Shown here piece by piece: positions 9,398 through 56,972 of a stretch of DNA of 58,332 nt. Source of the stretch: an uncultured Peptococcaceae bacterium (GTDB taxonomy: Bacteria; Bacillota; Dehalobacteriia; UBA4068; UBA4997); assembly GCA_947625705.1 (NCBI GenBank), contig CANQPG010000007.1, positions 1 through 58,332 on the forward strand. The letters are read 5' to 3'. Positions within the stretch are counted from its first letter, which is position 1. Each line of letters starts with the position of its first letter. The notes under the pieces were generated by a model. That model saw only the letters and a program-made list of their open reading frames with translations. It had not been told where the DNA came from and did no database searches. The position numbers were made by a program, and so were the translations under genes.

Positions 9398-9447
9398 ACA
9401 AAAACTCCAATCGGCGGCCATGCCGCCGCAAATTATCGCCTATCAGC

Positions 9448-10533
9448 TTATTTTACCAAATCGGGCGGCAAAACGCAAGCGCCCGCCCCGGCCAGCCGCG
9501 CCAGCCAAAATTCGCGGAAAGCCTGCTCGGCCAGCATAAACTCACCGCCGTCCGCCGCGCGAAGCAGCAGCGCGCCCGGCGGCAAATCTTTCCCCCGGAT
9601 ACGCAGCCCCTTGGGATAATACGCCAAATTCTCGCGCCGATACCCCACCAGCGGCGCAATATCACGCTTATTTACGAAGCACTCCGCCGCCTGCGGCAGC
9701 CTATGCAGGGCATAAAGCAGCTTCTCCCGCCAGCAAAGCCCCTGCACCAGCGCGCCAAACGCCGGGTGATACGGCCCCGCCGCCACCTCGCGCGCCAGCT
9801 CCTCCGTCGGCTGGAGACCTATGCGGATAACCTGCGTCCCCGCCGCTTCGGCCAGCAGCTTGATATCAAGGCAGATCCGCGCCGCTTCTTCCAGCGTGAG
9901 CGGCTGAAACTCGCCCGCGCGGTACATACGCTCGCACTCGGTACCCGCCACCACCACCGTGGGATAGATACGCAGCAAGTCCGGTTTAAGCGATAAGATC
10001 CGTGCCGCGCCCTGCACTGCGCTCTCTGCCGTTTCGCCCGGCAGCCCCGGCATCAGCTGCACCCCGCAGACAAAGCCCCGCGCTTTCAGACGCTTTACCG
10101 CGGCGATTGAGTCCGCCGCCGTATGCCCACGCCGCGCGATACGCAAAACCTCGTCCGTCATCGACTGCACACCCAGCTCCACCGTACCCACGCCGTATGA
10201 CTTGAGCAGCGCCAACTCCGTCTCGTCCACCGCGTCCGGGCGAGTGGAAAGGCGTATCCCGCTGATACGCCCCTCGTCCAGCGCCTGCTTGGCCGCCGCC
10301 AGATAGCTTATCTGCATATCCCGGGGGATCGCCGTAAAGCTGCCGCCGTAAAAAGCCGCCTCCGGTTTAGAAGCCGCCTGTGGATCAAGCCGGGCAAGCG
10401 CTGCGGCCACCTCCCCCGGCGTGGGGGGCAGGCTTTGCCCGGCGATTTTGTGCTGATCGCAGAAAATGCACTGGTTGGGGCAGCCCAAATGAGGTATAAA
10501 AAAAGGCAGAATATGCCTTTTTGCCTGCGACAT
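9448..10533 (-). CDS. Radical SAM protein, Elp3-like without acetyltransferase domain
   Basis: A radical S-adenosylmethionine protein of unproven function. Residues 1-240 form the radical SAM core: the 4Fe-4S motif CPNQCIFC near residue 18, AFYGGSFTAI, STRPDAVDE and ELGVQSMTDEVL, which are hallmarks of the Elp3/YhcC branch (COG1243-like). At 361 residues the C-terminal GNAT acetyltransferase domain of true Elp3 is absent; the C-terminus is a short unclassified region. The gene between rnc and smc is a recurrent neighbour in Clostridia-type genomes. A tRNA-modification role is plausible but is only inferred from the family. Start ATG with GAGGTGG upstream. Confidence 0.8.
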   Translation of the reverse strand: MSQAKRHILPFFIPHLGCPNQCIFCDQHKIAGQSLPPTPGEVAAALARLDPQAASKPEAAFYGGSFTAIPRDMQISYLAAAKQALDEGRISGIRLSTRPDAVDETELALLKSYGVGTVELGVQSMTDEVLRIARRGHTAADSIAAVKRLKARGFVCGVQLMPGLPGETAESAVQGAARILSLKPDLLRIYPTVVVAGTECERMYRAGEFQPLTLEEAARICLDIKLLAEAAGTQVIRIGLQPTEELAREVAAGPYHPAFGALVQGLCWREKLLYALHRLPQAAECFVNKRDIAPLVGYRRENLAYYPKGLRIRGKDLPPGALLLRAADGGEFMLAEQAFREFWLARLAGAGACVLPPDLVK

Positions 10534-50133: not shown

Positions 50134-50170
50134 AAAAATATAGCCGGTAAATAATACCGGCTATATTTTT
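50134..50170. terminator. Bidirectional terminator, 16-bp perfect stem
   Basis: AAAAATATAGCCGGTA (50134-50149) and TACCGGCTATATTTTT (50155-50170) with a 5-nt loop. It separates the rightward small gene from the leftward UbiD operon. Confidence 0.93.
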
Positions 50171-50177
50171 ATGCCTG

Positions 50178-51068
50178 TTAAAGGCTGCTTAAAACCCTTG
50201 GGCAGGCCTTTTGAAACCAAACTGTAAAAAGCTCCGGCCAAACCGCCAAAAGACGCTCAACATCTGATCGGGGCAGCCATTTATATGCCGCCGCCTCCGC
50301 CGGGTTCAAACAGACCTCGCCGTCATAAACGCCCAGCAGCACATGGTCATATTCATACTCATACATAGTATCGTCAAAGCGGTGCTGGTAAACAAACGTA
50401 AACAGCTCTTGCAGCCGAACACCGTAAATACCACATTCTTCCGCCAGACGCCGCGACGCCGCCGCCGGCACTGCTTCCCCCGGACGGGGGTGCGAGCAGC
50501 AGGCGTTTGACCACAAACCGCCGCTGTGATATTTAGCTGCCGCCCGCTTTTGCAGCAGCATTTGCCCGGCTGAATTGACAATAAAAACCGAGAAAGCGCG
50601 GTGCAGCAAGGGGCGGCGGTGAGCCGACAATTTATCCGCCGTACCCACCGGCTGATCGTCATTGTCCACCAGAATCAGCTCCGCCTCCGGCTGTGCCAGT
50701 TTCAACACCTGCGCCAGGCAGCGCTGAAAGTTATCCGAAAGCCGGGCAATATCTGTGGCCGTCGCGCCGTCAATATGCAGGCCGACCGTAACCACGGTTA
50801 CGGCGTTGAAACGGGCGGCCACCGCCAAAGCGGCTGTCCGCGCCAGCAAATCGTCCTTGTGGGCGTTGACGCATAACAGCGAACAGGAAGCCGAACGTTC
50901 CGCCGCAGCAGTATCCAGCGACGCTCTGGGAACAGCCAGCGCGCAAGCGCCGATATGCGCCTTATCACCGCCGCCGAAATTCAGGCAGATATCATTGCCG
51001 CAAAAGCTCAGAGCAGCCGTTACCGTATGCCTGCCCTCCCCGGCGCTAAAACTGATCCTATATGACAT
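50178..51068 (-). CDS. Fusion of LpdD-like UbiD-accessory domain and type-1 IPP isomerase
   Basis: A 296-residue two-domain protein. Residues about 1-122 resemble the small LpdD proteins of UbiD-type decarboxylase operons (GDKAHIGACALAVPRAS at 34-50, HKDDLLARTAALAVA, VVTVGLHIDGATATDI). Residues about 128-296 are a type-1 (Nudix) isopentenyl-diphosphate delta-isomerase with every key residue visible: H150 and H156 (SAHRRPLLHRAF), catalytic C191 with H193 (NACCSHPRPGE), and E237/E239 (MYEYEYDHV). It should interconvert IPP and DMAPP. The ATG shares one base with the ubiX stop (TAATG), so translation is coupled. UbiX needs a dimethylallyl donor to make prenylated FMN, so the fusion may supply it. 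LpdD assignment is from memory of the family; IDI is firm. Confidence 0.85.
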   Translation of the reverse strand: MSYRISFSAGEGRHTVTAALSFCGNDICLNFGGGDKAHIGACALAVPRASLDTAAAERSASCSLLCVNAHKDDLLARTAALAVAARFNAVTVVTVGLHIDGATATDIARLSDNFQRCLAQVLKLAQPEAELILVDNDDQPVGTADKLSAHRRPLLHRAFSVFIVNSAGQMLLQKRAAAKYHSGGLWSNACCSHPRPGEAVPAAASRRLAEECGIYGVRLQELFTFVYQHRFDDTMYEYEYDHVLLGVYDGEVCLNPAEAAAYKWLPRSDVERLLAVWPELFTVWFQKACPRVLSSL

Positions 51069-51634
51069 TATTCCACCCCACGCCAGGCAACAAAAGACTG
51101 CGTTTCCCAGCCAAATTGCCGCAAAATTTTGCCGATAATATGGTCTATCTGATCGTTCAGGTCAGACGGCGCATTATAAAAAGTCAACATCGGAGGAATT
51201 ATGGTGCAGCCGGCGTCCGCCGCCAAAGCGAGGTTGCGCAGATGGATCTTCCCCAGCGGCATTTCCCGCGGCACCAACACGACCTTGCGTCCCTCTTTCA
51301 GGCAGACATCTGCCGCGCGCAGCAGCAGATTTTCCGCATAACCGTTGGCTATACCGGCCAGCGTTTTCATGCTGCAAGGCGCCACGATCATACCGTCGGT
51401 GATAAAAGAGCCGCTGGAGATCGCCGCCGCCATATTATGCTCGTCATGCACAACATCGGCCTGCGCACAAATTTCAGCCAAGCTGAGATCGGTTTCCAAC
51501 GCAAAATTGCGGCGGGCGCCGCTGGTGATAACCAAATGCGTTTCCACAGCCGCGAACTCTTTTAATGCCCGCAACAGGCGATAACCGATAATGACGCCGC
51601 TGGCGCCGGATATCCCCACAATAATTCTTTTCAT
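51068..51634 (-). CDS. ubiX: UbiX-family flavin prenyltransferase
   Basis: Makes prenylated FMN, the UbiD cofactor, from reduced FMN and dimethylallyl phosphate (or, in some homologs, the diphosphate). The 188 residues begin KRIIVGISGASGVIIGYRLL and contain SSGSFITDGMIVAPCSMKTLAGIANGY (in two parts), LVPREMPL and PPMLTFYNAP, all typical of UbiX. The second of two adjacent ATGs gives the better spacing from GGAGGG. Its stop overlaps the LpdD-IDI start, and its frame begins just after the DASS transporter stop. Confidence 0.95.
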   Translation of the reverse strand: MKRIIVGISGASGVIIGYRLLRALKEFAAVETHLVITSGARRNFALETDLSLAEICAQADVVHDEHNMAAAISSGSFITDGMIVAPCSMKTLAGIANGYAENLLLRAADVCLKEGRKVVLVPREMPLGKIHLRNLALAADAGCTIIPPMLTFYNAPSDLNDQIDHIIGKILRQFGWETQSFVAWRGVE

Positions 51635-51645
51635 CATACCCTCCG

Positions 51646-53031
51646 TCAACCCAAAAGTCCCATCATCTGCCAGTAAGGATAAGTAAATACCGCCGTAAAC
51701 ACAATTCCCACCGCAATGCGGATCGCCATGATCTTGACCAAATGGCTCATCTTCAGATAGCCAAAGCCGTATATGAGCATTAACGGTGCGATCTCATACG
51801 GAAACAGCGCCTGATTAAACCCCATGATCATCGCGTAACCGCCCAAAATCTCCGGATAACCCAGCGAGCCGCAAATATCCGCAACCGGCCCCATTAACGT
51901 GCCGATAAGCGCCAGCGGGTTTAACACAAAGTTGGAGCAAATGGAAAAAATATAAATACTCATCACCAACGAGAAGTTGCTTTTACTGGCAAAAACCGGC
52001 GTAATAAACTCTACGATACGGTCGGCCACTCCCAGCTCGCTGGTTACCGAGCCGATCGAGACCGCACCGACCAGAAAGAAAACGATCGAAAAAGGCAGCT
52101 TATTAAAATCCCCAATTCCCAATACACCGATTCCCGGAATAAAGCACAAGCACCCAATCAGAATGATCAGCCACGAAGCGTCCAGCTCATATAAGGAATC
52201 CGTGATCAAAAAGGCCAGCAAAACCACCGCCAGCACGGCCACCTTTTTCTCCTTAAGCGTAAATTTGCCCAGCTTGGCGCATTGCTCCCGCAAATAGCTT
52301 TTATCCAATGTAATATTCTGCGGCTTTAAAAACCAGACCAGGCTGACCGAGATCAGCGTCCACAATACCGCCGGGATCAGCATATCCTTGGCCCAATCCA
52401 GCCAAGTAAGCGAAGCGGCATAATGCTGCTTGAGAATACTTGCCGTCATCAGGGAATCGGCCGAAGCCGTCATAAATGCCATTTTGGGCGACCACACCGA
52501 CAAAAACACTACCAGCATCAGCACGGAAGCGATACGGGATTTTTTTTCGGCGCCCAGCACATCGCAAAGGCCGATCGCAATCGGCGTCATCAGCGCCACC
52601 TTGGCCATAACCGAGGGGATTATGGGCGTGATAACGATACAGGAAAGCATCAGCCCCACAATAATACCGCGCAGAGAGCCGCCCGTCCATAGCATGATCT
52701 TATAAGCAATTCTTTTTACCAGGCCGGATTCCACCACCGCCGCGCCAAGCATCAGGCCGCCGATAGTGATCCACGGCGTGCTGCCCGCCCAGCCGGAAAA
52801 TACTACGTTTGGCTTCGCCACGCCCAACACAACATACAGCACGGGGATAAGGATACCGACGACGGCATCGGGGATCAGCTCAAACATCCACATCAAAATA
52901 CCCCACAGAGTGACCATAATATACAGCTTCAGCTGCATATCCAGATCAAGCCCCATCGGCAGCAGCGGTATTATCAGCGAAACCAGCCATTTCACCATGT
53001 TCCGCCGCCTCGTTTCATCTGTTTTGAGCAT
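51646..53031 (-). CDS. DASS (SLC13)-family anion:sodium symporter
   Basis: Polytopic membrane protein of 461 residues with about 11-12 helices, in the divalent anion:Na+ symporter family (dicarboxylates, tricarboxylates, sulfate). Typical features are ELIPDAVVGILIPVLYVVLG in the first half and SNFVLNPLALIGTLMGPVADI in the second. Several proteins of this family in anaerobes exchange carboxylates. It lies between ubiD and ubiX, so it probably moves the decarboxylase substrate or product. ATG 4 nt after a G-rich RBS. Confidence 0.82.
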   Translation of the reverse strand: MLKTDETRRRNMVKWLVSLIIPLLPMGLDLDMQLKLYIMVTLWGILMWMFELIPDAVVGILIPVLYVVLGVAKPNVVFSGWAGSTPWITIGGLMLGAAVVESGLVKRIAYKIMLWTGGSLRGIIVGLMLSCIVITPIIPSVMAKVALMTPIAIGLCDVLGAEKKSRIASVLMLVVFLSVWSPKMAFMTASADSLMTASILKQHYAASLTWLDWAKDMLIPAVLWTLISVSLVWFLKPQNITLDKSYLREQCAKLGKFTLKEKKVAVLAVVLLAFLITDSLYELDASWLIILIGCLCFIPGIGVLGIGDFNKLPFSIVFFLVGAVSIGSVTSELGVADRIVEFITPVFASKSNFSLVMSIYIFSICSNFVLNPLALIGTLMGPVADICGSLGYPEILGGYAMIMGFNQALFPYEIAPLMLIYGFGYLKMSHLVKIMAIRIAVGIVFTAVFTYPYWQMMGLLG

Positions 53032-53086: not shown

Positions 53087-54463
53087 TTAGCGCTGAATTT
53101 CCGGGAAATCATATTCCTGCCAGTCCGGCACATCGGCCACGCTGGCATATTCGGCGCCGAACGGTATCGTGGCGTCCACACCGACGGTATCATTCAGCCG
53201 CGCGTTGGTCTGCTGCTCATTAGTGGAGGAAGGATCCAGCGGCGCGGACGGCACATCTTTGACCACGATCACATCACGCCCCGGCACCGTGCGGTAAGAC
53301 ATCGCCCACTCCACTTCGGCGGAATTATGCACGTCAATATCCGGGTCTACCGCGATCACCCATTTGGGACGAATATTGGACGACATGGCCGCCAGAATAG
53401 CATGCCGTGCCTCGCCCGCATAGCGCTGTTTCATAGCGATGACCACATACAGCTGCACGCCGCCGGAGGGGCGCACCGATACATCGGTAATGGTGGGGAA
53501 CTGCCCCCGCATCGCTTTCAGGAAAGACGCTTCAAACGGGATATTCTTCAGAATATGATTCTCCGTCACCGGCTTACCGGTAAGCAGCACCTGGAACAGC
53601 GGATCTCTGCGGTGCGTGATTGCTTTCACTTTGCAGACCGGCTTAGGGCTGCCCGGCGTCATATAACCGGTGTATTCGCCCAGCGGTCCTTCCTCGCGCA
53701 GCTCGTTAAAATTGACCTCGATCTCGATCACGAACTCGGCAGTTGCGGGCACCTCAACGTCAACCGTCTTGCATTTAACCAGCTCCACCGCCTCGCCGCG
53801 CAGGCCGCCCGCCAATGTAAAATCGTCCACCGTATCGGGGATCTGCTTTAACTGGCAGGTATAGCCCAGCACCGGGTCGGTGCCGATCACGATAGCCGCC
53901 TGGAACTTATCCATGCCCATTGCCTTGGCTTTGCTGCAATTTTTGCCAAAGCGGTGGAACGGCTGGGCAAACCAGCCAAAGGTATTTTTATCATGCAGCA
54001 TATAGCGGAAATGACCAATATCGCGCACACCCGTTTCCGGGTCTTTGGATACCGTTATGCCGGCCGTCAGGAACGGGCCGCCGTCCAGCGGAGAAAACTT
54101 GGGGATCGGCAGCTTATTTAAGTCGATATCATCGCCGGTGATCACCACTTCCTGGCAGGGCGCGGCGTCTACCATTACCGGCTCAATGGGGTTATCCAGG
54201 CCGTTGATGAACTTGCCGATAATTGAGGCGTTATCCGTTTCAAATGCCCGCAAAGCCCGCTCGCGGTTGCCGAAAACGCCGCTGACCATAGGATAATCCT
54301 TGCCTTTGGGATTATTGAAGATCACAATGGGCGCGTTCTGGGCGTAGCATTTACGTATCGCCTTACCAACTTCCAAATTACAATCGATCGGGCGGTCGAC
54401 TTCGATAACATCGCCGGCCTTGCGGCTGGCTTCCAAAAACTCCCGCAAGTCTTTATATGCCAT
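53087..54463 (-). CDS. UbiD-family prenylated-FMN decarboxylase
   Basis: Reversible non-oxidative decarboxylase of aromatic or conjugated acids using prenylated FMN. The 458 residues have the catalytic Arg-Glu-Glu set: R153 (IGHFRYML) and E258 with E263 (REEGPLGEYTGY), spaced as in Fdc1. It opens MAYKDLREFLEAS like hydroxyarylic-acid decarboxylases (LpdC/ShdC type), but the substrate cannot be read from sequence. The start ATG has AGGAG upstream; the longer frame lacks support. Associated ubiX, LpdD-like domain and two permeases indicate a catabolic rather than ubiquinone/menaquinone role. Confidence 0.92.
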   Translation of the reverse strand: MAYKDLREFLEASRKAGDVIEVDRPIDCNLEVGKAIRKCYAQNAPIVIFNNPKGKDYPMVSGVFGNRERALRAFETDNASIIGKFINGLDNPIEPVMVDAAPCQEVVITGDDIDLNKLPIPKFSPLDGGPFLTAGITVSKDPETGVRDIGHFRYMLHDKNTFGWFAQPFHRFGKNCSKAKAMGMDKFQAAIVIGTDPVLGYTCQLKQIPDTVDDFTLAGGLRGEAVELVKCKTVDVEVPATAEFVIEIEVNFNELREEGPLGEYTGYMTPGSPKPVCKVKAITHRRDPLFQVLLTGKPVTENHILKNIPFEASFLKAMRGQFPTITDVSVRPSGGVQLYVVIAMKQRYAGEARHAILAAMSSNIRPKWVIAVDPDIDVHNSAEVEWAMSYRTVPGRDVIVVKDVPSAPLDPSSTNEQQTNARLNDTVGVDATIPFGAEYASVADVPDWQEYDFPEIQR

Positions 54464-54550
54464 ACAGAAACACTCCTTTTTTTGCTGAAATTCTTTAATG
54501 ATTGCCGAAATCATCAAAATATCGCCAAATTTACAGAAATTCTGTCAAAA

Positions 54551-56053
54551 TCATAGAAACATGAAAAATACAATACCTGCGATGATCAATAGTTGTAAGA
54601 TCTGCCATTTAAACATGATATTGAACATCTCGCCGTCCTGCCCCTTAATACCGGCCAAAGACGAGGTATAGGTCAGCAGCGAGGGCTTTAACGGGTTAGC
54701 CGGCCCCATCGTGACCATAGCGGCAATACCGACCAATACGGCGGGCGCAATACCCAGCGCGTCGGCCACGCCCATCTGCATCTTGGAGAACATCGAACAG
54801 GCCGGGATACCCTGGCCAAACGCCATACCGGCCAAAAAGCCCAGACCGGAAAGCAGCACGCCGTATACGGAAGCGCCCCACTGCGACATCTGGCTGGCCA
54901 GCGTCGCGATCTGCGAAGTATCCAGCATCAACTGCACCATTGCGCCGCCCAGGAACAGCGTAGCCAGAGACGGCAGCGCGCGTTTGGTGGCCACCGCAAA
55001 ATCATTGGCCAGCGAGCTGCTGCGCTTGATGGCAAACACATGGCAGAGCAGCGCCGCCACTATAACATAAAAGCCGGGCGCAGTCAGCAAGGTGATCTTG
55101 GTGGGGCTGTAACCGAACAGACTGACACTGAAGCTCATATTATTACAGAATGTCTTTAACGGATAAGAATTAATAATAACCAGAACGACCACGGCAATCA
55201 GCGGCGCAAAAGCCTTAATAATTGTGCCCATGCTGAATTTTTCCGCATTTTCGTCGTCCTCATAGGCACTGCGGTCATATTTCTTACTGAACAACCACAG
55301 CATAATCAGCGAGAAGGTAGCCGCAGCCACCAAAGTCAGGATATAAAGCTCCGGGAAAATCTGCGTAAACAATACCACGGCCAGCATATTACCGATGACC
55401 GAAAGCACCAAAATCATCAGGTTGTCTTTGTCTTTCAGGCTGAAGCCAAGGATACGGAAAAAGCCGATTTCAGACACCACTACCAACGGCAGAGTGAGCA
55501 GACCCATAGTTTGCACAATATCCGTGATCGGCAGTTTGGTAACATTACTGGCGATATTGGCCGCAATAAACAGACTGACAAAAGCAATGCTCCAAGAAAA
55601 ATAAACCAGATAACCGGCTGCCGCCCGCACGCCGTTGATGCCCAGATTAACCAGACCGGGAATCGTCACGGGATAAGTGGCAAAACCGTTAAAGGCGCCC
55701 AGATAACCGCCGACAATAGACACCAGCGACATCGCCTTGCCCTCTTTGGTGGGCAATATCCCGTTCAGCGTTTTCAGCATAACGTTCAAACAGCCGGTGG
55801 AACGGAAGCATTGACCGAATATCTGCCCCGTCCAAAGCACCAAAAAGCCTGTCCATAGTGTTACATTGCCCCATATCGAAGCCTTAAGGCTGTCTAATAC
55901 CGGCATTTTATAAAATGCCACCACCACAACTAATTCTAAAACCCAGACAATAAGACTCATTTTAAGGGCGCTCATACGAAAGGCCAAAAAGCCGATCAAC
56001 AGCACCACAAAAGGCAGTAAAGCCAAAATGACTTCCAACGCTGTGTTTTCCAA
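54551..56053 (-). CDS. LctP-family (L-lactate permease-like) carboxylate transporter
   Basis: Membrane protein of 500 residues with about 12-14 helices. GGYLGAFNGFATYPVTIPGLVNLGING (in two parts), FLGGAMVQLMLDTSQ and a late GMAFGQGIPACSMF segment resemble the lactate/glycolate permease family. First gene of the leftward ubiD operon. The start is TTG, 9 nt after AAAGGAG. Substrate unknown: with the DASS transporter encoded two genes on, the pair may handle import of the acid and export or exchange of the product. The sampled sequence is about 45-50% GC, lower than the housekeeping block. Confidence 0.78.
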   Translation of the reverse strand: MENTALEVILALLPFVVLLIGFLAFRMSALKMSLIVWVLELVVVVAFYKMPVLDSLKASIWGNVTLWTGFLVLWTGQIFGQCFRSTGCLNVMLKTLNGILPTKEGKAMSLVSIVGGYLGAFNGFATYPVTIPGLVNLGINGVRAAAGYLVYFSWSIAFVSLFIAANIASNVTKLPITDIVQTMGLLTLPLVVVSEIGFFRILGFSLKDKDNLMILVLSVIGNMLAVVLFTQIFPELYILTLVAAATFSLIMLWLFSKKYDRSAYEDDENAEKFSMGTIIKAFAPLIAVVVLVIINSYPLKTFCNNMSFSVSLFGYSPTKITLLTAPGFYVIVAALLCHVFAIKRSSSLANDFAVATKRALPSLATLFLGGAMVQLMLDTSQIATLASQMSQWGASVYGVLLSGLGFLAGMAFGQGIPACSMFSKMQMGVADALGIAPAVLVGIAAMVTMGPANPLKPSLLTYTSSLAGIKGQDGEMFNIMFKWQILQLLIIAGIVFFMFL

Positions 56054-56132: not shown

Positions 56133-56213
56133 ATAGACTACAAAGCGCGCTTTATAAATATCTTTTGATAGTCTATTCTGTATTTATTATAAGAAAAACG
56201 ACCCTGCTTGTAA
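56133..56213 (-). promoter_or_regulatory. Promoter and operator-like palindromes of the ubiD operon
   Basis: Minus strand TTACAA (56213-56208), 16 nt, TATAAT (56191-56186). Just downstream are a perfect 8-nt inverted repeat, ATAGACTA (56133-56140) and TAGTCTAT (56169-56176), and a perfect 12-bp palindrome AAAGCGCGCTTT (56142-56153). The position downstream of the start would suit repression, or a hairpin in the 5' leader. The adjacent Crp/Fnr-type protein is the obvious candidate ligand. Inference. Confidence 0.6.
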
Positions 56214-56265
56214 GTTTAAGAAACTACCAAATTATTGTTGTCTGCACTACAATTTTTAATCCAAC

Positions 56266-56294: not shown

Positions 56295-56330
56295 TAATGA
56301 GTTAAGAATAAGCATAAGGAGGTGGCAATA

Positions 56331-56972
56331 TTGCATAATACGGCCTCCCTGTGCGCCCAATGCGGCAATCCTTTTTGCGCCAAACTGACGCCGGATTGCC
56401 AAAAACAGCTTTTTGCCAAGGCAACCCGCATCAATTATCCTTACAAAAAAGAACAAGTTATTTACTTTGGCAACGGTTATGTGATGCTGATCACCGAGGG
56501 CAATTTGATGACCATTCGCAATAATGTCCAAGGTAAACAGCAAGGGATCGATATTCTGCATGAAGGAGATCTGCTGGGAATTGTGCAGTTATTTAACAAA
56601 CAATACCACAATACCATTACCGTGCTTCCCTTATCCTCCGTTAAAGGCTGTATGATACCGGTAAGCGACTTTGAAGAAATGATCAAAAATGACAACACGC
56701 TGGCTCAAATTACGATCGCCCATTATTCCCAGCGTTTTGCCCGGGCGCTGACACATCTTTCCAATCTGGCGATCGATGACAGCAAAGCCAAACTCGATTA
56801 CGCCATGAGCATTGTTGATAAAATGGGCGCCAATGCCATTACACACGAAGAACTGGCCATTTTTTCCGGCCTTAACCGGGTAACAGTAACCAAAGCGCTG
56901 AAAGGACGCAAGGCGCCGCCGCATTATACAGTTCTGGATATTGAACAGTTATACAAACCAAAAAAAGAGTAA
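56331..56972 (+). CDS. Crp/Fnr-family regulator with N-terminal cysteine cluster
   Basis: Transcription factor of 213 residues: a cyclic-nucleotide-binding-like beta barrel (about 30-120) and a C-terminal winged helix (about 145-205; EELAIFSGLNRVTVTKAL as recognition region). The N-terminus has C8-x2-C11-x4-C16-x6-C23, and one more cysteine, C107, lies in the effector domain, reminiscent of FNR's three N-terminal cysteines plus C122. It could therefore sense oxygen or redox through an Fe-S cluster. The TTG 8 nt after AAGGAGG is the preferred start; a GTG three codons earlier overlaps the RBS. Divergent from the ubiD operon; the stop lies inside its terminator hairpin. Confidence 0.83.
   Translation: MHNTASLCAQCGNPFCAKLTPDCQKQLFAKATRINYPYKKEQVIYFGNGYVMLITEGNLMTIRNNVQGKQQGIDILHEGDLLGIVQLFNKQYHNTITVLPLSSVKGCMIPVSDFEEMIKNDNTLAQITIAHYSQRFARALTHLSNLAIDDSKAKLDYAMSIVDKMGANAITHEELAIFSGLNRVTVTKALKGRKAPPHYTVLDIEQLYKPKKE

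Follow-up and report, generated by a model that had tools for sequence, protein, structure and literature searches.

The window analysed here is the whole stretch of 58,332 nucleotides from an uncultured Peptococcaceae bacterium, whose genome is a draft of 70 contigs that is 92% complete. On its minus strand, the window carries a run of genes in the order LctP-like permease, UbiD, DASS transporter, UbiX, and, as the last gene, a fusion of an LpdD-like domain to a type-1 IPP isomerase (IDI) (Table 1). The permease gene is followed by a 33-base gap, ubiD by a 55-base gap, and the DASS gene overlaps ubiX by four bases. The original prediction, made from the letters alone, had placed the fusion ORF at the correct positions without naming the strand, and its UbiX/UbiD operon setting is confirmed by Pfam matches for UbiD-DASS-UbiX and by scores above the TIGR00421 and TIGR00148 cut-offs. 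The one-base overlap with ubiX that it described is also present, with the A of the fusion ATG being the last base of the ubiX TAA stop codon. In the region of the sigma-70-like promoter match, promoter-like matches show no clear excess over shuffled sequences. From its position, the divergently oriented Crp/FNR-type regulator could possibly control the run. The solved structures nearest to the UbiD of the window are 6h6v and 6h6x, the first of which we take to be a furan dicarboxylate decarboxylase; this closeness and the presence of DASS and LctP-like transporter genes in the run hint that this UbiD decarboxylates an imported dicarboxylate.

Table 1. Features of the fusion gene and its surroundings in the window
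Feature	Position	Strand	Support
Terminator-like hairpin, 16 pairs and T run, directly after the fusion	50134..50170	-	consensus match only
LpdD-like::type-1 IPP isomerase fusion gene	50178..51068	-	single ORF, 296 aa, ATG start; Pfam/NCBIfam matches
Type-1 IPP isomerase domain, residues 126-287, full catalytic set	50208..50693	-	NF002995 E 3.6e-42, TIGR02150 E 9.8e-33
LpdD-like domain (PF21758 PAC_bac), residues 11-123	50700..51038	-	PF21758 E 7e-29
UbiX flavin prenyltransferase	51068..51649	-	TIGR00421 215.8 bits, above cut-off
DASS-family (Na_sulph_symp) anion transporter	51646..53031	-	PF00939 E 2.5e-37
UbiD-family (de)carboxylase	53087..54517	-	three UbiD Pfam domains; TIGR00148 above cut-off; closest solved structure 6h6v
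LctP-like permease, first gene of the run	54551..56053	-	PF02652 E 9.9e-23; 33-base gap to ubiD
Sigma-70-like promoter match upstream of permease	56186..56214	-	consensus match only, 10/12
Divergent Crp/FNR-type regulator	56322..56972	+	PF00027 match

The type-1 IDI identity of the C-terminal half, originally read from motifs, is borne out. Residues 126-287 pass both NCBIfam curated cut-offs (144.1 bits against 127 for NF002995 and 113.2 bits against 105.8 for TIGR02150), the Pfam NUDIX match covers fusion residues 155-275, and the sequence of this half matches IDI structures in the PDB. The metal ligands and catalytic residues that had been picked out, H150, H156, C191, H193, E237, and E239, are all present and invariant in 25 aligned IDIs, as are K146, R175, K179, E211, Y227, and W284; R207 is nearly so. 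In the comparison with E. coli IDI, 13 of 13 metal-binding, diphosphate-binding, and catalytic residues are retained: K21, H25, H32, R51, K55, C67, and H69 correspond to K146, H150, H156, R175, K179, C191, and H193 of the fusion, and R83, E87, Y104, E114, E116, and W161 correspond to R207, E211, Y227, E237, E239, and W284. In a model of the full-length protein, the isomerase half is confidently predicted (block means 94-98), and its fold matches those of E. coli IDI (1nfs) and human IDI, with Nudix hydrolases ranking below the IDIs. The isomerase half thereby has the same catalytic set, fold, and NCBIfam membership as E. coli Idi (PDB 1nfs/1i9a), and it would be expected from its sequence to convert IPP to DMAPP. 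However, type-1 IDIs are usually free-standing, whereas this one forms a single protein with a cofactor chaperone and is encoded downstream of ubiX.

The original assignment of residues ~1-122 to LpdD also holds. Residues 11-123 match PF21758 with 100.3 bits against a Pfam cut-off of 27, and when 22 relatives of the N-terminal half were combined into a profile, LpdD was its sole PDB match (E 9e-15). In the full-length model, in whose alignment only the isomerase half had relatives, the LpdD half has low confidence; an AlphaFold2 model of this half alone (three sequences) reached a pLDDT of 74. The six best fold matches of the latter are LpdD structures, with 8pzo at the top (E 5.7e-7), followed by eukaryotic proteasome-assembly chaperones, and a likeness to these chaperones has been reported for LpdD itself (PMC10865409). 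The metal ligands H35, H61, and D63 of LpdD align with H38, H70, and D72 in the fusion. LpdD of Lactobacillus plantarum (PDB 8p4w, 8po5, 8pzh, 8pzo), which binds only reduced prenylated FMN (prFMN) and helps load UbiD (PMC10865409), shares the domain family, the predicted fold, the metal site, and a gene adjoining ubiX with the fusion; however, it is a small, single-domain protein, whereas the fusion has an isomerase on the LpdD-like C-terminus. The LpdD half is thus predicted to bind prFMNH2 and to activate apo-UbiD.

A search for the same architecture detected the fusion nowhere else in the window's order and class, in a sample of its phylum, in the family of genome G109, or in a sample of Clostridia, but a separate idi recurs beside ubiX/ubiD. 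Lacrimispora amygdalina has UbiD-DASS-UbiX-LpdD-IDI, exactly the order of the window, with the last two genes being separate, and genome G919 has this arrangement too, again with separate LpdD and IDI. DASS-UbiX-IDI-UbiD-LpdD is found in G506 and G583, which belong to one genus, and in G386, UbiD-DASS-UbiX-LpdD lies beside a divergent LysR-IDI pair. In G109, the IDI is kept beside a damaged UbiX/LpdD, while locus L084 has an overlapping LpdD-IDI gene pair with UbiX/UbiD absent within 9 kb. On plasmid 2 of Aromatoleum aromaticum EbN1, from another phylum, idi and IclR-ubiX-ubiD are divergently oriented. Within the window's order, a separate, clear IDI occurs in five further genomes. Among 25 genomes with a real type-1 IDI, from samples drawn regardless of context and with the window's genome excluded, 5 of the 25 idi genes (four genera) lie in UbiX/UbiD/LpdD clusters, against ~0.2-0.4 expected, a figure that is estimated rather than measured and takes one or two ubiX per genome and a reach of 10 kb. 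At an expected 0.8-1.6%, the binomial P is 1e-6 to 4e-5, and by genus it is 3e-5 to 5e-4. The two-domain protein is real and well supported; more important is that IPP isomerase and prFMN systems are repeatedly associated. The fusion itself is seen in one genome (a MAG) only, while the gene association is seen in several. What had been proposed as a new principle for UbiD systems is better put as a gene association that recurs and has the fusion as its extreme case. We did not find a link of IDI to UbiD systems described in the open-access papers searched. Most LpdD/UbiX clusters are without idi, arguing that donor supply by idi is not generally required. As far as examined, neither the idi of a phage record nor those of E. 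coli plasmids had any bearing on UbiX/UbiD.

Several of these loci have further features. In EbN1, a Betaproteobacterium, the UbiD-UbiX cluster with IclR and the divergent idi spans positions 5373-9645 of an 18.6-kb stretch in which no LpdD-like gene was found. In G109 (contig C30, 10321-10914, minus strand), one ORF consists of the first ~120 residues of UbiX and LpdD-like residues ~62-112, suggestive of a deletion or of an assembly collapse; the IDI alongside is intact, and the UbiD, encoded on the opposite strand, is likewise incomplete. G386 has two UbiD/UbiX/LpdD clusters of different subfamilies, and DASS and IDI are present in one only. On an Aenigmatarchaeota contig (6016-10227), an IDI and a UbiD-family gene lie ~2.4 kb apart on opposite strands, and this pair may belong to an archaeal mevalonate route.

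Between the window, Lacrimispora, and G506 types, the UbiDs share only 26-30% identity and represent different subfamilies, whereas the UbiXs of the IDI clusters are 61-65% identical. In Bacillota, the six IDI-linked UbiXs group with five unlinked ones in a single clade (SH-aLRT 98). Because the UbiDs are diverse while the UbiXs are alike, IDI seems to serve UbiX rather than a particular UbiD substrate. The UbiD-linked IDIs form no clade and are scattered on the IDI tree, with seven changes, of which at least three are forced by starred branches; consequently, IDI seems to have become linked to these clusters on more than one occasion. In a small sample gathered with the window protein as bait, the clusters with UbiX and DASS all carry IDI (the window, L107, G919, G386, and G506/G583), whereas IDI is missing from all nine UbiX/UbiD/LpdD clusters without DASS that were inspected; G109 has IDI without DASS. 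A dedicated importer suggests a catabolic decarboxylase that would be made in quantity and would need more cofactor.

The donor of UbiX is DMAP for some of these enzymes, DMAPP for others, and both for UbiX of E. coli O157 (PMC6541611). His169 of the window's UbiX (counted in the translation from 51646) aligns with His164 of O157 UbiX and Gln203 of AnUbiX (alignment to 1sbz and AnUbiX). AnUbiX is DMAPP-specific and O157 UbiX accepts DMAP and DMAPP, and specificity is not set by this residue alone (PMC6541611). Based on this alignment, His169 appears to be DMAPP-permissive. The IDI-linked UbiX clade has clade-specific residues; a His at the DMAP/DMAPP site was rejected as a signature of the IDI link because it is common outside this clade.

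The window's genome has the MEP enzyme IspH; the MEP pathway is, therefore, the presumed source of IPP and DMAPP. Searches of this genome gave no type-2 IDI above cut-off and no type-1 IDI besides the fusion, and eight sampled genus mates gave no IDI match. Because of IspH, the lack of a second IDI, and the genus mates without IDI, the isomerase of the fusion is probably not needed for housekeeping isoprenoids. Under the MEP pathway, IspH should already supply some DMAPP, which counts against a dedicated supply. The fusion IDI likely tunes the DMAPP pool locally, next to the enzyme that consumes it, as accessory idi genes seem to do beside an isopentenyl transferase on an Ensifer plasmid and beside photosynthesis/carotenoid genes in Thiodictyon. 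These, too, are extra type-1 idi genes adjoining a DMAPP or isoprenoid consumer; here, however, a flavin prenyltransferase takes the place of that consumer, and idi is part of one gene with a chaperone.

We favor the reading, to which we give a probability of about two in three, that the fusion provides a dedicated DMAPP supply for flavin prenylation in one polypeptide with the prFMNH2 chaperone of the UbiX/UbiD system. The C-terminal half would isomerize IPP to DMAPP, the adjacent UbiX would use this DMAPP to prenylate FMNH2 to prFMNH2, and the N-terminal LpdD-type chaperone would bind prFMNH2 and pass it to the UbiD decarboxylase. A single polypeptide would, thereby, combine the steps that precede and follow UbiX in a fixed ratio, and, because LpdD is a dimer, a fusion dimer would carry two isomerase domains. 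The original interpretation is supported in part: the proposed coupling of donor supply to cofactor making gains strong support from the recurrence of idi in UbiX/UbiD/LpdD clusters and from the residue type of UbiX, which is that of a UbiX able to use DMAPP. That IPP isomerization, UbiX prenylation, and UbiD loading form one tethered assembly in which DMAPP and prFMNH2 are passed on locally is a further step, which we regard as doubtful.

Two alternatives give the isomerase-like half or the operon a different task. Type-1 IDI has a Nudix fold, and E. coli NudJ and other Nudix enzymes produce DMAP for prFMN (PMC12359138); this half could, accordingly, be a hydrolase converting DMAPP to DMAP for UbiX. 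However, it passes the curated IDI cut-offs while Nudix hydrolase models score far below their own cut-offs, it retains the IDI catalytic residues C191, E239, Y227, and W284, and the UbiX beside it has a DMAPP-permissive residue, so that we consider hydrolysis of DMAPP unlikely. The archaeal-type mevalonate route employs a UbiD/UbiX pair and IDI. If the operon made isoprenoids by this route, UbiD would be a trans-anhydromevalonate-phosphate decarboxylase and IDI an ordinary last step, and a control search did find LpdD-like proteins in Methanosarcina. Yet the genome has IspH of the MEP pathway, the run holds two transporter genes, the UbiDs of IDI-linked clusters come from different subfamilies, and the closest solved UbiD is 6h6v, all of which makes this explanation very unlikely for the window.

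Other alternatives concern the fusion as such. It might be an assembly or sequencing error in which an indel joins neighboring or overlapping genes, and its occurrence in a single draft genome fits such an error. However, the frame is homologous up to and straight after the junction. On the LpdD side, the window reads ...CLAQVLKLAQP where G386 reads ...VLVEIKTKLASP-stop, with KLAQP resembling KLASP-stop; directly after KLAQP, the window continues with PEAELILVD, comparable to MEDLLICVD of G109. Both other reading frames contain stops at the junction, codons 100 to 140 hold no in-frame ATG with which a separate IDI could begin, and GC by codon position is steady across the junction without a jump. 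The frameshift artefact named at the outset as the finding that would overturn the fusion is, thus, very unlikely. As separate genes, LpdD and IDI are 8 bases apart from stop to first ATG in L107 and overlap in L084; because the relatives' genes lie this close and the frame is homologous on both sides, it is plausible that the fusion arose by loss of a stop codon. There is almost no linker between the two halves, as would result from simple stop-codon loss, and this is also in line with co-regulation only, i.e., that idi is in the cluster for its expression and the fusion is neutral, with no gain from the tether. The separate LpdD and IDI of Lacrimispora and G919, which are presumably functional in this form, likewise speak for co-regulation; nothing counts specifically against it, and the recurrent adjacency of LpdD and IDI fits tethering and co-regulation alike. 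We consider co-regulation without benefit from the tether a serious possibility that falls somewhat short of an even chance, and under it the role of IDI in donor supply still holds.

UbiX/UbiD operons with maturation genes are known, as in lpdBCD and in phdABC with the PhdC maturase (PMC13040415), and like the window they combine UbiX and UbiD with a helper of prFMN delivery or maturation. These helpers act after prenylation, by binding or oxidation, whereas IDI in the window would act before it, on donor supply; in the open-access papers searched, we found no helper acting at this earlier point. The parts are known, and the combination is new. Together with the neighboring genes in relatives, the fusion suggests that some UbiD systems bring their own supply of the prenyl donor. 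Obtaining active UbiD enzymes is difficult. While the known helpers act post-prenylation, the genomes point to a limit before prenylation, the dimethylallyl donor, for which IDI is a ready helper. It will be interesting to determine whether donor supply limits prFMN formation in cells and whether the tether between isomerase and chaperone improves UbiD activation; for UbiD biocatalysis, the fusion is a practical construct. A role in donor supply would also account for puzzling idi genes in Clostridia.

LpdD-like proteins were found in 9 of 43 genomes of the window's class. Four LpdD-like genes (L026, L027, L140, and L143) have no UbiX, UbiD, or IDI within the surrounding 10-16 kb, and in genome G512 (contig C139, 6710-8887), an LpdD-like gene with UbiX/UbiD absent within 14 kb adjoins a DASS transporter gene. 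The LpdD-like family may, therefore, also act away from UbiD clusters.
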